The notes under the pieces are model-generated. The model was not told the DNA's origin, ran no database searches, and worked only from the letters and a program-made list of their open reading frames with translations. Source: Enterobacter sp. CC120223-11 (lineage in GTDB: Bacteria; Pseudomonadota; Gammaproteobacteria; Enterobacterales; Enterobacteriaceae). Taken from it: a stretch of 64,000 bases of DNA. This document shows, one piece after another, positions 10,304 through 17,569 of the stretch (position 1 is the first letter of the stretch; each line of letters starts with the position of its first letter). The stretch lies in the NCBI RefSeq assembly GCF_900215375.1, contig NZ_OBEF01000001.1, forward strand, positions 372,001-436,000. The letters are read 5' to 3'. The position numbers and the translations under genes are program-made.

Positions 10304-11334
10304 AAAAAATGCTCGCCGCCGCGGCGCTGGTACTTGGCATGGGTGCCGCGCACGCCGATGACAGCAAAACGCTCTACTTCTACAACTGGACCGAGTACGT
10401 GCCACCTGGCCTGCTGGAGCAGTTCACCAAAGAGACTGGGATCAAGGTTATCTATTCGACCTATGAATCGAATGAAACCATGTACGCCAAGCTGAAAACC
10501 TACAAGGACGGCGCGTACGATCTGGTGGTGCCATCGACCTATTTCGTCGACAAAATGCGCAAAGAGGGCATGATCCAGAAGATCGACAAGTCGAAGCTGA
10601 CCAATTTCAGCAACCTCGACCCGGAGATGCTGAACAAGCCGTTCGACCCGAATAACGATTACTCCATTCCCTACATCTGGGGCGCCACGGCGATTGGCGT
10701 CAACAGCGACAGCATCGACCCGAAAACCGTCACCAGCTGGGCCGACCTGTGGAAGCCGGAATACAAAGGCAGCCTGCTGCTGACCGACGACGCGCGTGAA
10801 GTGTTCCAGATAGCGCTGCGTAAGCTTGGCTTCTCAGGCAACACCACCGATCCGAAAGAGATTGAAGCGGCCTATAAAGAGCTGCAAAAGCTGATGCCAA
10901 ACGTCGCGGCGTTCAACTCCGATAACCCGGCGAATCCGTACATGGAAGGCGAAGTGAATCTCGGCATGGTGTGGAACGGCTCGGCATACGTGGCCCGCCA
11001 GGCCGGTACGCCGCTGGAAGTGGTGTGGCCAAAAGAAGGCGGTATCTTCTGGATGGACAGCCTCGCCATTCCGGCGAATGCTAAAAATGTCGACGGCGCG
11101 CTGAAGCTGATTAACTTCCTGCTGCGCCCGGATGTGGCAAAACAGGTGGCAGAAACCATCGGTTACCCGACGCCAAACCTTGCCGCGCGTAAGCTGCTGG
11201 ATCCGAAAGTCGCCAATGATAAATCGCTTTACCCTGACGCCGAAACCATTAAGAACGGCGAATGGCAGAACGACGTCGGCGACGCCAGCCGTATTTATGA
11301 AGACTATTACCAGAAGCTGAAAGCAGGACGCTGA
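10300..11334 (+). CDS. potD: Spermidine/putrescine-binding periplasmic protein PotD
   Basis: 344 residues with a Sec signal peptide (MKKMLAAAALVLGMGAAHA, then DDSK). The mature protein begins LYFYNWTEYVPPGLLEQF, typical of polyamine-binding type II periplasmic proteins. It delivers spermidine, and putrescine less well, to PotABC. It ends the operon and is followed by a clear stem-loop terminator. Confidence 0.96.
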   Translation: MKKMLAAAALVLGMGAAHADDSKTLYFYNWTEYVPPGLLEQFTKETGIKVIYSTYESNETMYAKLKTYKDGAYDLVVPSTYFVDKMRKEGMIQKIDKSKLTNFSNLDPEMLNKPFDPNNDYSIPYIWGATAIGVNSDSIDPKTVTSWADLWKPEYKGSLLLTDDAREVFQIALRKLGFSGNTTDPKEIEAAYKELQKLMPNVAAFNSDNPANPYMEGEVNLGMVWNGSAYVARQAGTPLEVVWPKEGGIFWMDSLAIPANAKNVDGALKLINFLLRPDVAKQVAETIGYPTPNLAARKLLDPKVANDKSLYPDAETIKNGEWQNDVGDASRIYEDYYQKLKAGR

Positions 11335-11343
11335 TCCCTCACC

Positions 11344-11368
11344 GGCGGGGCAACTGTCCCGCCCTTTT
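11344..11368 (+). terminator. Intrinsic terminator of potABCD
   Basis: GGCGGG pairs with CCCGCC around a GCAACTGT loop and is followed by CTTTTCTT, 10 bp after the potD stop. Confidence 0.8.
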
Positions 11369-11459
11369 CTTCCCCCAACTACGCCTTTCTGCTTACTACT
11401 GGCCTTGTCGATTTTCACTATGCTTGGATCATCCGCTGCAGACATCGCAGGCAACGCGT

Positions 11460-11966
11460 ATGGCAAAGCTCTGGCTGTTTCTCGAACTGGCTAATCTGCT
11501 GGTCTTTACTCTTTATATTGCGCCGGGCAAACAACCTCCAGGAGCAAGAATGCTGATCCCCGCAGCGGCCACAAAGCTACTGCGACTGATGTGGCTCCTG
11601 CCGATTCTGGCATTTGGCTATAGCTTATTTCTCGATTCGCCCGTCACGTCGCTGGACTGGATATGTCTGCTGATGGCGGTGGCGGGTAGCAGCCTGGTGA
11701 TAAAAGGGAAACGCGATCTTGGGAGATATCACACCTGGGCGGGGTACTATCTCCCCGGCGCGCCGAGGCTTAGAAGCGGCATCTTTAAATGGCTCGCGCA
11801 CCCAATGTACACCGGCATTATTATGGTTATCGTGTCGTGCAGCCTCGTCTATTTCACCCGACTGCCGACCTTCCTTAGCGCCGTGGCACTTGCCAGCTGC
11901 CTTTATATTGTGACTTTCCTGCTGATTGTGGCGGTGCGCGAGAGAAATGCCCTTATCGTTCAGTGA
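11460..11966 (+). CDS. Isoprenylcysteine carboxyl methyltransferase-like membrane protein
   Basis: About 168 residues from ATG 11460 (MAKLWLFLELANLLVF); a TTG at 11424 would add 12 residues. There are four to five hydrophobic segments and a C-terminal R-x-GIFKWLAHPMYTG motif. That motif is characteristic of the ICMT/phospholipid N-methyltransferase superfamily (RHP...Y), and a late Glu lies in AVRERNAL. Bacterial members methylate small lipids or unknown substrates, and the substrate cannot be told here. It lies between potD and the Dlt-like operon, pointing towards the latter, at the left edge of the accessory block. I know of no E. coli gene of this type at this site. Confidence 0.7.
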   Translation: MAKLWLFLELANLLVFTLYIAPGKQPPGARMLIPAAATKLLRLMWLLPILAFGYSLFLDSPVTSLDWICLLMAVAGSSLVIKGKRDLGRYHTWAGYYLPGAPRLRSGIFKWLAHPMYTGIIMVIVSCSLVYFTRLPTFLSAVALASCLYIVTFLLIVAVRERNALIVQ

Positions 11967-11998
11967 ACCCTATTCTGGCACTTCAGAATTTGTCGGCA

Positions 11999-12025
11999 GC
12001 AGGGAGCGAACGGTACGCTCTCTGC
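11999..12025. terminator. Hairpin between the methyltransferase-like gene and dltC
   Basis: GCAGGGAGCG pairs with CGCTCTCTGC (one G-U) around a 7-base loop. TATTTCC follows on the plus strand. It lies in the 67-bp gap between two convergent genes and may terminate both. Confidence 0.55.
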
Positions 12026-12033
12026 TATTTCCT

Positions 12034-12252
12034 TCAGCGATTAGCCTCAATATAAGCGGCCAGACTCGCTGGTGTTTTTAATACCGTTGCCACGTCGGTT
12101 GGCGAAATCATACAACCGAATTCATCCTGAACTTCAAGCACCACGTCCACCGCCAGGATGGAGTCCAGAATATCTGACTCGATCAGCTCATCGTGAAAGC
12201 CAACTTTACGGGACAGGATACGTTCAAATAACGCCAGAATTTGTTGTTCCAT
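12034..12252 (-). CDS. dltC: D-alanyl carrier protein-like acyl carrier protein (DltC-like)
   Basis: A small acidic carrier protein of about 72 residues. The phosphopantetheine site is the Ser in SDILDSILAVD (residue 31 with this start), followed by VVLEVQDEFG, the typical helix II of DltC-type carriers. A GAGGAG Shine-Dalgarno precedes tandem ATG codons; the second (12252) has the better spacing, though 12255 or a GTG at 12258 are possible. It is the last gene of the operon, 17 bp after dltA. It should receive an aminoacyl group from the DltA-like ligase as a thioester and present it to DltB. A holo-ACP synthase would be supplied from elsewhere. Confidence 0.85.
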   Translation of the reverse strand: MEQQILALFERILSRKVGFHDELIESDILDSILAVDVVLEVQDEFGCMISPTDVATVLKTPASLAAYIEANR

Positions 12253-12269
12253 CATCACTCCTCACTTCA

Positions 12270-13703
12270 TCAATTCACGCGGGCTTGCGCGTCTAATAAC
12301 TTACGGTCGATTTTGCCGTTCGGGTTCAGCGGCAAATTTTCTTTAATCAGGATCTGCCCGGGCACCATGTACGATGGAATCACCTCCGCCAGCGCCTGTT
12401 TAATGGCGTTCGGGGAAAGCTCCGTCACGCAAAACGCAGCGATACGAAGCACGCCGCCACCGGGCTTCATCAGCGGCATGACCACAGCTTCCTGCATGCC
12501 CGGCAGGTTCAGCAATCTGGCTTCAATTTCACTGATTTCAATACGATAGCCGTTGAGTTTGATCTGGCTGTCGTTGCGCCCCGAACAGTAGAAATAATCC
12601 TGTTCATAGCCAAGATCGCCGGTCCGGTACCCGCGCCATGGCGAATCATCACGCTTGAGTAACTTCGCCGCGTTTTCCTCATCCAGCCCCAGATAACCCC
12701 GCATCACATTTTTTCCCCAGATGATCAATTCCCCTTCCGGGGCGATTTCCATAAAGGAATTCGGCATCATCTGGCCGATGGGCAGCAAGTCTGAATCGCT
12801 CATGAGCATGGCATCGGTAATTTCGACCACGGTGGTGGCAATGGTCGCTTCCGTTGGCCCGTAGGCATTAATGATTTTTGCCGCAGGAAAGCGGCGGCGA
12901 AGCTGCTTCACCAGCGCCTTGTTCAGCACTTCGCCGATAAAGACAAATACCTTCAGCGCGGGCAAATACTCAGCGCTGAACCGGGGAGAGATCAGCTTCT
13001 GATACGCAAATGAAGGCGTGGAAACCCATGCGGAAACGCCCTTCTCGCTGAGCATATCAAGCCAGTTTTCAGCGGCTATGTGCTCTTTCGCATTGAGAAC
13101 GATATGCCCGCTGGTAGCTAAATTCGCTAACAGCGGGATCAGCGACAGGTCAAAGCTGAACACCGCGTGGTTCATCAGGACCGGGGATTCAGGCAGCACA
13201 AAATCCTGCCCGACCCACTGCATAAAGCTCCACACTGATTCCCGGCCAATCTGCACACCTTTCGGTTTCCCCGTACTTCCGGAGGTAAACATAATGTACG
13301 CCAGGTCCGGCTCCTCCAGCGGTTTCGCCGCAATACCCGTCGAGACAAACTCCCGCTGCGCGACATCGTAATACTGAGGCGCGCTTGCCAGCGTGCAGAT
13401 TTCCCGCAGACGCTCAGGCGGATAGATGCAATCGACCGGGATGTAGGGGATGCCGTGGAGTAAACAGCTGTAGATCGCGACGGCGAACTCTGCCTGTTGA
13501 TGGCCATAAAGCACAACCGGTACTGCTGGCGGCAGACGCAGCTCACGATAGCGCCCGACCCAGTCCATAACGGCCAGGCTCAGCTGCTGCCAGGTGAGCG
13601 CCTCTTCGCTGCCGCTAATAGCCAGCTGATTCGGACGGGCGGGATCCAGCAGAGCGCGGCGCAGAAACTCCCCCAGCGCCTGTAAATCAGATTGCATAGT
13701 CAT
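12270..13703 (-). CDS. dltA: DltA-like amino acid--carrier protein ligase (AMP-forming)
   Basis: 477 residues from the ATG at 13703, which overlaps the dltB stop as ATGA; a longer frame to 13832 lies inside dltB and is rejected. It is an ANL-superfamily adenylation enzyme: A3 loop YIMFTSGSTGKPKGV (about 136-150), FSFDLS with the substrate-amino Asp185, A5 NAYGPTEATIATT, A7 YRTGDLGY, A8 NGYRIEISEIE and catalytic Lys464 in NGKIDRK. It should activate a small amino acid and load the carrier protein. The segment VFIGEVL (255-260) has Ile256 where Gram-positive DltA has Cys in FCGEVLP. That Cys is linked to D-alanine stereoselectivity, so the substrate may not be D-Ala. Confidence 0.88.
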   Translation of the reverse strand: MTMQSDLQALGEFLRRALLDPARPNQLAISGSEEALTWQQLSLAVMDWVGRYRELRLPPAVPVVLYGHQQAEFAVAIYSCLLHGIPYIPVDCIYPPERLREICTLASAPQYYDVAQREFVSTGIAAKPLEEPDLAYIMFTSGSTGKPKGVQIGRESVWSFMQWVGQDFVLPESPVLMNHAVFSFDLSLIPLLANLATSGHIVLNAKEHIAAENWLDMLSEKGVSAWVSTPSFAYQKLISPRFSAEYLPALKVFVFIGEVLNKALVKQLRRRFPAAKIINAYGPTEATIATTVVEITDAMLMSDSDLLPIGQMMPNSFMEIAPEGELIIWGKNVMRGYLGLDEENAAKLLKRDDSPWRGYRTGDLGYEQDYFYCSGRNDSQIKLNGYRIEISEIEARLLNLPGMQEAVVMPLMKPGGGVLRIAAFCVTELSPNAIKQALAEVIPSYMVPGQILIKENLPLNPNGKIDRKLLDAQARVN

Positions 13704-14818
13704 AACGGTGACATTCCACTGAAGATGTAAAGAGATACCGCGGCCCCTGCAAGGGTGAGGACCCGGCCTGCAAAAGAGACAGGCGGCAATTGCAGCCAGC
13801 AGCCGAAGGCAGGACGTTTTTTCGCCGTCCACAGCAACATGTTATGAGTGACGGACATCAGCCCGAAAAGCACACCGCTGACAACATAATGCCGCTCCAG
13901 GCCATTCCACGCCCCCATACAAAAAAGCGTGCAGAAAATACCGATATTCTGGGCCAGCGTTTTATTAAGCCGAAAATAGTTCAGTCGCAGCAGATGCATA
14001 TAAACCGGCATGAAAATGACGTCACGCAGCCATTCAGACAGGCTGATATGAAAACGCCGCCAGAAGTCCTGCGGGTTTTTCGCCAGGATCGGCAGATTGA
14101 AGTTCGCCGGGATATTCAGCCCAAAGAGACGTCCAGCCCCCATCGCCATATTGCTGTAGCCTGCAAAGTCGAAATAGAGATAAAAGCTATAGGCAACCGA
14201 CAGGACAACGCCCTGCGTCCAGCTGAACGGCTGGTGCTGCCAGTGGCTGATAATTTCGCGGTCGATGAGCATCGCAAACAAAAACTTCTGCACGATACCG
14301 TAAAATATCTGCTGCATGGCCTGAAGAAAAAGATCGCAGGTCATGACGAAACTGGTCTGCTTAATATCTTTCAGCCAGCTGTTCCAGCGGTACATCGGAC
14401 CTGCGAGGATCACAAAGGGCATAAACAGATAGCAAAAATAGTAAATGAACGCGTGGGCATCTTCTTTTTTGCGATACAGCAAAACATCGATGGCCCTGAA
14501 GGTCATAAACGACAACCCAATCATGCCCCAGTGATTATTGAGATGGAGCTTAACCAGCAGCAGGGGTAGCAGCGTCAGGCTGACCGCCTGCCAGGTTTTC
14601 AGCCAGTGCTTCTCCTTCATCCAGGCCACGCCGTAAAAACAGGCAAACACGGCAACAGGAATAATGAACTGGTCACGGAAGATATGCACCCAGCCGAAAA
14701 GCGTCAGCACTGAAAAAGAGACCAGGTACGTAAGCCGATGTTTTAGATAACGGTTAACACCTGCAAAAACCAGTGCAGATGAAAAAAGCCAGACAAAAAA
14801 ATACGCATTCGAATACAT
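13700..14818 (-). CDS. dltB: DltB-like membrane-bound O-acyltransferase (MBOAT)
   Basis: 372 residues from MYSNAYFFVWLFSS (ATG 14818, 10 bp after the microprotein stop), somewhat shorter than typical DltB. It is polytopic, with about ten hydrophobic segments. The MBOAT core DFWRRFHISLSEWLRDV contains His257. The second family motif, normally WHG with the invariant His, reads MGAWNGLERHYVVSG: Asn305 replaces His, and His310 lies five residues on. The protein should move the activated acyl group from the cytosolic carrier across the inner membrane to an extracytoplasmic acceptor. It overlaps dltA by 4 bp. Confidence 0.87.
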   Translation of the reverse strand: MYSNAYFFVWLFSSALVFAGVNRYLKHRLTYLVSFSVLTLFGWVHIFRDQFIIPVAVFACFYGVAWMKEKHWLKTWQAVSLTLLPLLLVKLHLNNHWGMIGLSFMTFRAIDVLLYRKKEDAHAFIYYFCYLFMPFVILAGPMYRWNSWLKDIKQTSFVMTCDLFLQAMQQIFYGIVQKFLFAMLIDREIISHWQHQPFSWTQGVVLSVAYSFYLYFDFAGYSNMAMGAGRLFGLNIPANFNLPILAKNPQDFWRRFHISLSEWLRDVIFMPVYMHLLRLNYFRLNKTLAQNIGIFCTLFCMGAWNGLERHYVVSGVLFGLMSVTHNMLLWTAKKRPAFGCWLQLPPVSFAGRVLTLAGAAVSLYIFSGMSPL

Positions 14819-14828
14819 AGTTACACCG

Positions 14829-14951
14829 TCAGAATTGCTGATATTCGAACTGAACTTTGGGTTTTGACGCGTCATCCACCGTTGACCAGGCGACAATAGT
14901 CAGCGCCAGAAAAAAATAAAGCAGAAACAGTCGAATAGCTTTCTTGATCAT
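14829..14951 (-). CDS. dltX: DltX-like membrane microprotein with C-terminal FxYxxF acyl-shuttle motif
   Basis: A 40-residue ORF: MIKKAIRLFLLYFFLALTIV begins it and the C-terminus is KVQFEYQQF. The ATG (14951) overlaps the dltD TGA as ATGA, and the stop is 10 bp before dltB, so the ORF exactly fills the gap. A positively charged N-terminus, one hydrophobic helix (about 6-23) and a polar tail predict an outward-facing C-terminus. The last six residues fit the FxYxxF hexapeptide described for DltX of Staphylococcus and Streptococcus, where the Tyr accepts the acyl group from the MBOAT and passes it to DltD. Size, topology, motif and position all agree; assignment is by these features, not by a search. 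Confidence 0.82.
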   Translation of the reverse strand: MIKKAIRLFLLYFFLALTIVAWSTVDDASKPKVQFEYQQF

Positions 14952-16087
14952 TGGAAGTGCTCGTAAATAAAATGATCCATATCCACCCAAGCTAAATCAG
15001 TCGGATGCAGATAATCCTTATTCCAGCCGTTTTGGTAAGGCTGCTTATACATATCAAAATAAGGTATCTGATATTTTTTCAGCGTGGCCGCAATCATGTC
15101 GTCTGCTGCCTTAAATCGCTCAGGATGGTTGACCACCCAGGGATTTATTGGGTCGACGATGACCACGACGTTCACATGTCGCCTGTGCAGCATACCGATC
15201 ATTTTCTCAAAAACGGCCATCTGCTGTGCATCTGGAGCACGCGAGCTCCAGTCAAATTTCGACTTTTGTGTTTTAGCGTATTCTCGTGACACCCAATGGG
15301 TTGCAGCACTTACATGATGATCCGCCGTCATCTTCATTGCCTGTTGGCGTTGATATACCCAATCGATGCGGTCTGGTATTTTTCCGTCGGGGGACCAGCT
15401 ATCTGCATCATCTCTGTAGAAAGGAAGTTTCTGCTTGTAATAATTTTTTATCTGGTCGCAAAAATGCCCAAACTCCCAGGTTATCGTGCTTTTATTCAGG
15501 CCAAACAATCGGTCATGATGATGAGGTTTGTGCCATATTATGGACTCCATCTCTTCCCCGTTGAGGCTTGAAAAATAGGTTTTTAGCGACGGAGAAATGT
15601 CCTTGTCGGCGAGTAAAGAGTCAATAATTGACGCAGGAACATGATCTTCAAAAATATCCGGACGTAGTTTTGCACGATAAAAATTATCCGGGGACAGCAA
15701 TAGCACCATTTTTGTTTTATTGCTGAGATCTTTTTTAAAATGTGTTAACAAGGAAAACTGTATCAGACTCTCTACCAGTCCCCCTCCGTACGCCACGACA
15801 GGAATATGGAGATCTTTGTTGAAGTAATTATAGACAGCATAATGCTCATCCTCAGACCAACTGACCTCTGATGCACCCAAGAAGAAAATAGCATTCCCTT
15901 TTAATGCGTGAGAAAGCGTCATCATCTTTTCCCGCTGTTCATGGGCAGAGCCTGTCATGGAACTTATCATCGGCTGGAATATGATTCCATCGAGAGAGTT
16001 GCTCCATAAAGGTGGAATGCACAGTACCAATACGGCAGCGAATGCCATAGTGATATGCAAAATAATATTTTTATTCACTTTCATCAT
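14948..16087 (-). CDS. dltD: DltD-like periplasmic acyl transferase
   Basis: 379 residues. An N-terminal helix (about 8-28) anchors a periplasmic SGNH/GDSL-like domain. The nucleophile motif is FLGASEVS with Ser73 (G-x-S-E, as in DltD). The other catalytic pair is in KDYLHPTDLAW (Asp358 and His361, DxxH). DltD takes the acyl group from the DltX tyrosine and transfers it to an envelope acceptor. It is the first gene of the operon; no strong Shine-Dalgarno is seen before the tandem ATGs. Its base composition is clearly more AT-rich than its neighbours. The acceptor in this teichoic-acid-free organism is unknown. Confidence 0.85.
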   Translation of the reverse strand: MMKVNKNIILHITMAFAAVLVLCIPPLWSNSLDGIIFQPMISSMTGSAHEQREKMMTLSHALKGNAIFFLGASEVSWSEDEHYAVYNYFNKDLHIPVVAYGGGLVESLIQFSLLTHFKKDLSNKTKMVLLLSPDNFYRAKLRPDIFEDHVPASIIDSLLADKDISPSLKTYFSSLNGEEMESIIWHKPHHHDRLFGLNKSTITWEFGHFCDQIKNYYKQKLPFYRDDADSWSPDGKIPDRIDWVYQRQQAMKMTADHHVSAATHWVSREYAKTQKSKFDWSSRAPDAQQMAVFEKMIGMLHRRHVNVVVIVDPINPWVVNHPERFKAADDMIAATLKKYQIPYFDMYKQPYQNGWNKDYLHPTDLAWVDMDHFIYEHFQ

Positions 16088-16713
16088 CTAATCAATATGA
16101 TAAAACTTTGTTAAAGTATGTCTTATTTATAAATAACTGACCGTTTCTCTGACGTGTCGCAGAGTTAAAGCGCACTATAACTTATGATCTATTGATTGTA
16201 TGTAACCATATGTACAACGCCAGCGTAATCACTATCTCAAATTTTATTGGTGATTATTTTTTCGATACTCTTAGCTTAATATCATTATCCCACTAATAAA
16301 TAAAACTTTCTAAACAGTAGCTCTACAGGTACTTTCTATAGCATTAAACACCATAAAACCAATTTATAGCATGATAGTAATCCATAGCATCGTGCATCAT
16401 CAGCATCTGATAGGGAGGATGTCATACCAAATAGGGGATATTAAGATCGTCATTTCCCGTTTTGATAACATTACGATAATAATATTGTTATCATTCGCCT
16501 CTAAAACTGCTACCAGATATGCCTGAATGTAACCATTGATTTATAATAGACGCAGGCATCGATAAGAAATAATCGAGTATTGGCAATTTTCAAATGAAAC
16601 TCATTAGCAATTCATTTAGCTAAATGCTAAACGCAAAGTAAACCACAGCATGAATTTCAGAGAGATATTTGGGAAATATTAAACAAAGAAATGCCGCAAT
16701 AAACAGCAAAGGC
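16088..16713. other. AT-rich intergenic region upstream of the Dlt-like operon
   Basis: About 630 bp with no convincing gene. GC is far below the flanking genes; one 60-base line at 16261 is about 28% GC. It presumably holds the promoter of the minus-strand operon; a TATAGT hexamer on that strand near 16174-16179 is possible but its -35 match is poor. A near-perfect palindrome lies at 16475-16492, nested in GATAACA/TGTTATC arms at 16464-16492. ATAGCAT recurs three times between about 16335 and 16390. I saw no PhoP box. Such AT-rich DNA would be a natural H-NS target (inference). Confidence 0.6.
16475..16492. promoter_or_regulatory. Palindrome of unknown function
   Basis: GATAATAATATTGTTATC is an 18-bp dyad with one mismatched pair. 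It shares GATAA/TTATC ends with Fur-type sites but does not fit the 19-bp Fur consensus well. It lies about 390 bp upstream of dltD and about 250 bp beyond the cobB end, so a role in either direction is uncertain. Confidence 0.3.
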
Positions 16714-16741
16714 GGGTACGTGCAGAGTGCACATACCCGGA
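16714..16741 (-). terminator. Probable terminator after cobB
   Basis: Read on the minus strand, CGGGTATGTGCA pairs with TGCACGTACCCG (one internal mismatch) around a short loop, followed by CCTTTGCTGTTTATT. It ends the lolCDE-nagK-cobB transcript just past the cobB stop. Confidence 0.6.
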
Positions 16742-16747
16742 CAAGGC

Positions 16748-17569
16748 TCAGAGCCCTTTCAGCAATTTATCAATAAACTCTGGCACCACGGCGCTGGCCA
16801 GCCCGTAGTGTTTTTCTTCAAACTCACTGCCCACCTGGCTCGGTTCGAGATTGAGTTCCACGGTATGTGCCCCCTGCAGTTTCGCCTCATGCACGAAGCC
16901 TGCTGCCGGGTAGACATGGCCGGAGGTGCCGATGGCGATAAACACATCCGCCATGGCCAGCGCTTCGTAGATTTCGTCCATGCCGAGGGGCATTTCGCCA
17001 AACCACACCACGTGAGGACGCAGGGGTTGAGGGAACTGGCAGCAGTGACATTTATCATCCGGGGTCACGTCGTCCTTCCACTCCAGCACCTGCCCGCTCC
17101 AGGCACAGCGCACTTTCAGTAGCTCGCCGTGCATGTGCAGCACGCGTTTACTGCCCGCGCGCTCATGCAGGTTGTCGATATTTTGCGTCACCAACATAAA
17201 GCGGTCACCCAGCGCTTCTTCCAGCCTTGCCAGCGCCAGATGCGCCGCATTCGGCTGAATGTCAGACTGCTGTAACTGCCGACGGCGGGCGTTGTAGAAT
17301 GCCTGCACCAGCGCCGGGTCGCGGGCAAACCCTTCCGGCGTAGCCACATCCTCCACCCGATGCTCTTCCCACAAGCCGTCGGCAGCACGGAAAGTGCGGA
17401 TCCCGGACTCTGCCGAGATCCCCGCCCCCGTCAGGACCACCACTCGGGGTTTGTCCATCTCTTCGGGTGCCGCTCTGTCGCGGAAGAAAACCCGCTGGCG
17501 CAGCCTGTCGTGCAACCGACGTTTGCTGAGACGAAAACGGCTGAGTCGATGAAAGCGACGCGAGTGCAT
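16748..17569 (-). CDS. cobB: NAD-dependent protein deacylase (sirtuin) CobB
   Basis: About 273 residues from [14 protein letters not shown]. The ATG at 17569 has AGGGG at proper spacing and matches the basic N-terminus of E. coli CobB; an upstream ATG at 17635 is rejected. It is a class III sirtuin: [14 protein letters not shown] (NAD), [12 protein letters not shown], the catalytic His in HMHGE, and zinc-binding Cys residues including CHCC. It removes acetyl and succinyl groups from lysines of metabolic enzymes such as Acs. It is last in the lolCDE-nagK-cobB operon, 13 bp after nagK. Confidence 0.96.

Follow-up and report, generated by a model that had tools for sequence, protein, structure and literature searches.

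The minus-strand ORF at positions 14829..14951 of the window (the whole analyzed stretch of 64,000 nucleotides) is a real gene of 40 codons located within a dltDXBAC operon. The encoded microprotein most likely functions as DltX, judging by its operon, its C-terminal motif, and the separation of this motif from the partner MBOAT. What looks new, and is odder than the microprotein, is the changed active site of this partner, DltB.

Structure of the operon and the dltX gene

The earlier note described a 40-codon ORF between dltD and dltB with an ATGA overlap, a 10-bp gap, and an FEYQQF end, and all these coordinates were correct upon re-reading. Minus-strand positions 14951..14829 are translated into MIKKAIRLFLLYFFLALTIVAWSTVDDASKPKVQFEYQQF followed by a stop. 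The start codon of dltX and the stop codon of dltD share the sequence ATGA (14948-14951). The dltX frame closes with a TGA whose last base is 14829, and a spacer of 10 bases precedes the dltB ATG at 14818. An alternative upstream TTG in the window would give a 53-aa product; in many relatives the frame is closed immediately before the 40-aa form, which makes the ATG at 14951 the start codon that is conserved. A basic N-terminus and one hydrophobic helix were read by eye from the translation, and the product is a predicted single-pass membrane microprotein with Tyr37 of the tail as the presumed acyl carrier. Of all stop-to-stop frames with at least 20 aa in the window (1,771 in 64 kb), only 1 terminates in FxYxxF.

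All other genes of the operon are also on the minus strand. The gene dltD (14948..16087) encodes an SGNH-type periplasmic transferase with Ser73, Asp358, and His361, matching Pfam DltD with 92.4 bits (cut-off 22.7), and dltB (13700..14818) encodes an MBOAT of 372 aa (32.4 bits against PF03062, cut-off 27). The product of dltA (12270..13703) is an amino-acid adenylating ligase, and dltC (12034..12258, start at GTG 12258 or ATG 12255) encodes a carrier protein with the LDS phosphopantetheine motif. These four large neighbors of dltX matched the Pfam families DltD, MBOAT, AMP-binding, and PP-binding above the cut-offs. They also matched the NCBIfam Dlt equivalogs, all below the curated cut-offs, including 192 bits for DltB against the LTA_dltB equivalog TIGR04091 (cut-off 375) and 65.6 bits for DltD against TIGR04092 (cut-off 150). 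A sequence search with the window's DltD gave no convincing match to solved structures. DltD diverges far faster than its neighbors, with 45-54% identity within the genus vs 80-82% for DltB and 90-93% for DltC.

Conservation of dltX

The 40-residue query searched against 60 relatives matched 18 genomes at E≤1, of which eight matches, including the own genome, were strong (E≤2.4e-8); the remaining weak matches (E 0.025 to 1) look like chance. Profile A1, built from eleven sequences that all share FEYQ and the last Phe in their tails, matched 33 of the 343 genomes of the family; a partial match in genome G967 (E 8.5e-4), which contains a stop, was dropped as chance. At the class level (369 genomes), the sole full-length match of the DltX profile was the window's own, and two weak partial matches carry stops. 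Since a DltX-profile search itself selects for the ORF, genomes found via DltB alone provide the fair test, and all 10 genomes with close DltB identified in this way (8 and 2 more) contained the dltX ORF just upstream. It was also present on 3/3 plasmids bearing the operon and in 6/6 of the genomes with Pfam DltD; these six, out of 398 searched across the phylum, all belong to this family.

Altogether 35 genomes, most of them found by the DltX search, were examined. The tail FEYQ[QK]F was present in 33 of the 34 readable genomes, and YEYQQF was found in the deepest member, G1034; two plasmids read alongside these genomes have FEYQKF. The unreadable case, locus L097 of genome G034, is frame-disrupted and comes from a genome that is 49% complete. 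The set of loci analyzed in detail consisted of 20 fetched regions, the window, and two plasmids, and the spacing between dltD and dltX was -4 nt in 22 of these 23 loci, the exception being L097. The operon order was D-X-B-A-C throughout this set except in G1034, where it is C-D-X-B-A.

The length of dltX is nearly constant (39-41 codons), and the differences from the window are distributed over the codon positions as 194/79/428 (19 comparisons). The pN/pS ratio was 0.23 (190 pairs of 20 sequences, leaving out the duplicate L054, L096, and L097; synonymous sites were near saturation), with a median of 0.18 over 79 pairs with pS of 0.05-0.6. A chance or spacer ORF that merely couples the translation of dltD and dltB would fit the ATGA overlap and the short length, but it is already contradicted by the excess of third-position differences, the low pN/pS, the constant length, and the conserved C-terminus, and such an explanation is hardly credible. 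A chance ORF is ruled out because the dltX frame is conserved. Comparison of the gap between dltD and dltB in relatives, proposed in the earlier note, thus revealed a conserved ORF with terminal FxYxxF and a low pN/pS, and not the loss of the ORF or tail or the frame-disrupting substitutions that would have spoken against a gene. The proposal of a conserved DltX-like gene within a dltD-X-B-A-C operon, bearing a shuttle motif separate from the MBOAT, is likewise supported by the 23-locus set, the pN/pS values, and the motif comparison.

Relation to known DltX proteins

The DltX microprotein of Gram-positive bacteria carries D-alanine on the Tyr of its FxYxxF motif from DltB to DltD (PMC12148441), and dltX is essential for D-alanylation in Bacillus thuringiensis (PMC5541007). 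The enterobacterial protein is likewise small, encoded in the dlt operon, and terminated by FxYxxF. However, the search with a DltX profile suggested in the earlier note did not recognize it: three enterobacterial DltX sequences had no matches to Pfam DltX (PF12459) at E≤10, whereas two Gram-positive controls matched with E-values of 2e-20 and 9e-16. By sequence profile, therefore, the enterobacterial microprotein is not a member of PF12459. The hhalign comparison of the enterobacterial profile with three Gram-positive DltX gave a probability of 1.9%, being a weak test with few and short sequences, and the NCBIfam search was uninformative for enterobacterial DltX, since no DltX was found even in two Gram-positive controls. 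Searches of DltX against solved structures yielded no convincing match.

In a 7-row alignment with Gram-positive DltX, the only shared invariants were the last Phe, the Tyr of the tail, and one Tyr within the hydrophobic stretch. Gram-positive DltX ends with FIYNEF in operons of the order X-A-B-C-D, and its partner DltB keeps the invariant His; the enterobacterial protein ends with FEYQ[QK]F in the order D-X-B-A-C, and its partner has Asn. The shared C-terminal motif is the link of the enterobacterial microprotein to DltX.

In kind, a separate enterobacterial microprotein is nothing new. The earlier note considered its presence in Enterobacteriaceae notable, but dlt genes in Dickeya and Pectobacterium were reported and a Gram-negative DltX was mentioned in print in 2017 (PMC5541007). 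There it is said to have the same topology as in Gram-positives, with the basic N-terminus inside and the tail outside, and no sequence similarity; a shared C-terminal motif is not mentioned for Gram-negative DltX in the available portions of this paper. A 2025 study describes the MBOAT/SGNH pathways other than Dlt as having neither a DltC-like carrier nor a DltX-like microprotein (PMC12148441). Through their tail, the separate microproteins encoded in Gram-negative dlt operons are connected with the acyl-Tyr shuttle. The earlier note considered the gene probably unannotated; its homologues on three plasmids are annotated in RefSeq as 'hypothetical protein' (WP_255423173.1). The operon was reportedly written as dltDXBAC in the abstract of Pandin et al. 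(2016) on Dickeya and Pectobacterium.

Separation of the shuttle motif from the MBOAT

The order-wide search for DltB matched 88 of the 394 genomes and revealed eight close orthologues along with more distant MBOATs. Of the distant MBOATs, 22 were fetched; their open frames span 444-658 aa, and all 22 carry F[IL]YxxF at the C-terminus. The window's DltB is 372 aa long and ends with SLYIFSGMSPL, without this motif; the explanation that it is a fused MBOAT was therefore rejected. This agrees with the expectation of the earlier note that the motif is fused to the MBOAT in other systems, including Gram-negative ones, and is split here. At the phylum level, the motif was C-terminal in 21 of the 24 MBOAT rows, and two of the 24 show no such motif; one of these rows, from G018, duplicates a locus already present among the 22 order-level rows, so that the 46 fused rows represent 45 different loci. 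In fused MBOATs of the PatA/AlgI type, the same C-terminal hexapeptide carries the shuttle Tyr, but it is located on the end of an MBOAT with a His/His active site, whereas in the window it belongs to a separate microprotein accompanied by a His/Asn DltB. In three Gram-positive operons from plasmid records DltX is separate as well and ends with FIYNEF, the L111 copy being an unannotated frame.

In the tree of 57 MBOATs, the enterobacterial DltBs formed one clade (support 100/100), sister to the Gram-positive DltB (99/92, with a program warning of long branches between the two groups). Outside were 39 of the 46 fused rows, seven near-copies or short rows having been left out. One further dltB, at 3174-4361 of L110 from the Ligilactobacillus murinus plasmid pLmYK1, stands alone beside a bactofencin A family bacteriocin gene, with no dltX, dltA, dltC, or dltD annotated around it in the stretch shown.

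Altered active site of DltB

Catalysis by MBOATs is thought to employ the invariant His of TM6' together with Asn, Asp, or His on re-entrant loop 2 (PMC12979248), and in Streptococcus thermophilus DltB these positions are occupied by the invariant His336 and the conserved His289 (PMC11035591). The window's DltB is homologous to this protein (6BUG, 8JEM) over residues 2-335 with E 6e-30. According to the HMMER alignment, in which the positions were counted, His257 corresponds to His289, which is thus kept, but Asn305 is found in place of His336. Trp288 and Tyr345 of S. thermophilus DltB are replaced by Phe256 and Ser314. The combination of the loop His and the TM6' Asn was observed in all 36 enterobacterial DltBs read (34 genomes and 2 plasmids). 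In contrast, the fused MBOATs were His/His in 22/22 order-level and 24/24 phylum-level rows, as were 5/5 Gram-positive DltBs. His310 was rejected as a replacement catalyst, since Asn occupies this position in the LELNY lineages G025, G333, G1048, and G1034.

A second change affects the microprotein. The shuttle Tyr is preceded by Glu in all enterobacterial DltX read, and by Ile, Leu, or Val in the fused and Gram-positive motifs seen. Every readable member of the clade has both the His to Asn and the Ile/Leu to Glu replacement, and neither was observed in the other MBOAT and DltX proteins examined. Since the deepest member, G1034, shares them, both probably arose at the base of the clade. These replacements represent one joint event on one branch and not independent replicates, which suggests their coupling but does not prove it statistically.

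Because the MBOAT His required in PatA and DltB is absent, the first transfer, to DltX, cannot be taken for granted. The loss of MBOAT chemistry along with the TM6' His, with DltB and the microprotein now acting as a transport or regulatory subunit or in some other role, would be consistent with the Asn in all 36 DltBs and with the replacement of the pocket residues Trp288 and Tyr345. Still, the 15 rows aligned show no variation at His257, Trp253, Trp304, and many further core positions, the shuttle Tyr and Asp185 of DltA are kept, as are Ser, Asp, and His of DltD (25/25 rows), and the dltB mutant of Dickeya has a strong phenotype. Such strong conservation, like the Dickeya phenotype, speaks against an inactive DltB, and we consider its loss of acyltransferase function unlikely. 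A structural or assembly subunit of DltB-DltD with a non-acylated Tyr is a role that would agree with the few invariant residues (two Tyr and the last Phe) shared with Gram-positive DltX in the seven aligned rows. This role appears very unlikely for the microprotein, since FEYQ and the final Phe are invariant in the 11 profile sequences and PatA, which needs the MBOAT His, is acetylated on the Tyr of this hexapeptide (PMC12148441).

DltB of this lineage most likely works with a reversed active-site pair, with His on the re-entrant loop and Asn on TM6' instead of the usual Asn, Asp, or His opposite the invariant His. It is tentatively possible, although doubtful, that this MBOAT dispenses with the His regarded as universal by using His257 with Asn305 opposite, and that the Glu of DltX helps to activate the acceptor Tyr. 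The invariant His is treated as the hallmark and a catalyst of MBOATs, a family ranging from human acyltransferases to bacterial enzymes that acylate polymers (PMC12979248, PMC10213974). A whole conserved lineage lacking it, perhaps with an active site contributed by two genes, would amount to a natural experiment in which the role of this His can be studied. The parts of the literature covered by the search contained no mention of the His to Asn change in enterobacterial DltB.

Proposed relay and its substrate

We consider it probable that the enterobacterial ORF is the counterpart of DltX and that the operon encodes a relay from DltA via DltC, DltB, and Tyr37 to DltD. DltA would activate D-alanine or a closely analogous amino acid and load it on DltC. 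The inner-membrane MBOAT DltB would then move the acyl group from DltC to Tyr37 of the FEYQQF tail, predicted to be periplasmic, and the tail would hand it over to Ser73 of DltD for esterification of an envelope polymer. Transfer of an amino-acid group across the inner membrane is thus the very probable role of the microprotein. To our knowledge, Gram-negative bacteria have no teichoic acid.

The nature of the amino acid can be assessed from DltA. The Cys268 of Bacillus cereus DltA selects D- over L-alanine (PMC8972799). The equivalent position is Ile256 in the window and Ile in 21 of the 22 enterobacterial rows; Cys is found in G1034 (L096) and in three Gram-positive rows. Asp185, which binds the amino group, is kept. 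D-alanine is therefore a probable but not secure substrate, and the carried amino acid may be a different one.

Probable link to the Dickeya dlt genes

In Dickeya dadantii, dltB is induced in aphids and needed for survival of polymyxin, and the mutants are polymyxin-sensitive (PMC3544676). The same paper names Photorhabdus luminescens as a further holder of dlt genes. The published D. dadantii dltB primers were best matched, in sum, by genomes G1425 and G1427, with 1 and 2 mismatches, and the predicted product of 1,675 bp compares with the published 1.7 kb (PMC3544676). Both loci carry the FEYQKF ORF and the DltB Asn. In genus g57, the same primers matched only 1 of the 25 genomes, with 2 mismatches. 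The characterized Dickeya dlt genes thus probably belong to the same orthologue group as those of the window, although they come from another genus and the window's operon sits between potD and cobB. One published result does not fit an obligatory relay via DltD: a Dickeya dltD mutant is reported to equal the wild type in resistance (Pandin et al. 2016, cited via PMC5541007), unless the gene in question is the 'dltD (or pbpG)' named in the 2013 paper, the ID of which is far from those of dltB, dltA, and dltC (PMC3544676).

Distribution and genomic location

Within the window's genus, the operon was found in 4 of the 7 genomes, in all four between potD and cobB; two other DltB matches in the genus were weak (31% identity). 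In the three genomes G002, G004, and G006 (loci L149, L150, and L152, compared with window region 11334-17569), potD and cobB are direct neighbors with no dlt genes between them, so that this site, either empty or restored, has seen a gain or a loss of the operon. In the window, the stretch between potD and cobB (11335..16747) contains, in addition to the dlt operon, a plus-strand ORF at 11424-11966, located between potD and dltC and coding for a small protein with ICMT/PEMT methyltransferase profiles. This ORF was also found in G003 and is absent between potD and dltC in G001 and G005.

A scan of named genome contigs with DltB revealed two loci only, and neither version of the operon matched any of the 5,426 Escherichia coli genomes at megablast sensitivity. 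The operon, linked to antimicrobial-peptide tolerance in Dickeya, is also carried by plasmids of Klebsiella electrica, Enterobacter cloacae, and Klebsiella pneumoniae, where it lies beside transposase genes of the IS1, IS5, IS110, IS903, and IS26 types. The plasmid loci L053, L054, L055, and L114 (NZ_CP041250.1, NZ_CP071862.1, and NZ_CP063883.1) are 99.8-100% identical in the aligned parts; a fourth plasmid record with the operon was not found. The deep-branching dlt operon of G1034 (L096, L124) combines YEYQQF in DltX, Asn in place of the MBOAT His in DltB, and the retained Cys in DltA, and an ORF next to it appears aspartokinase-like by eye.
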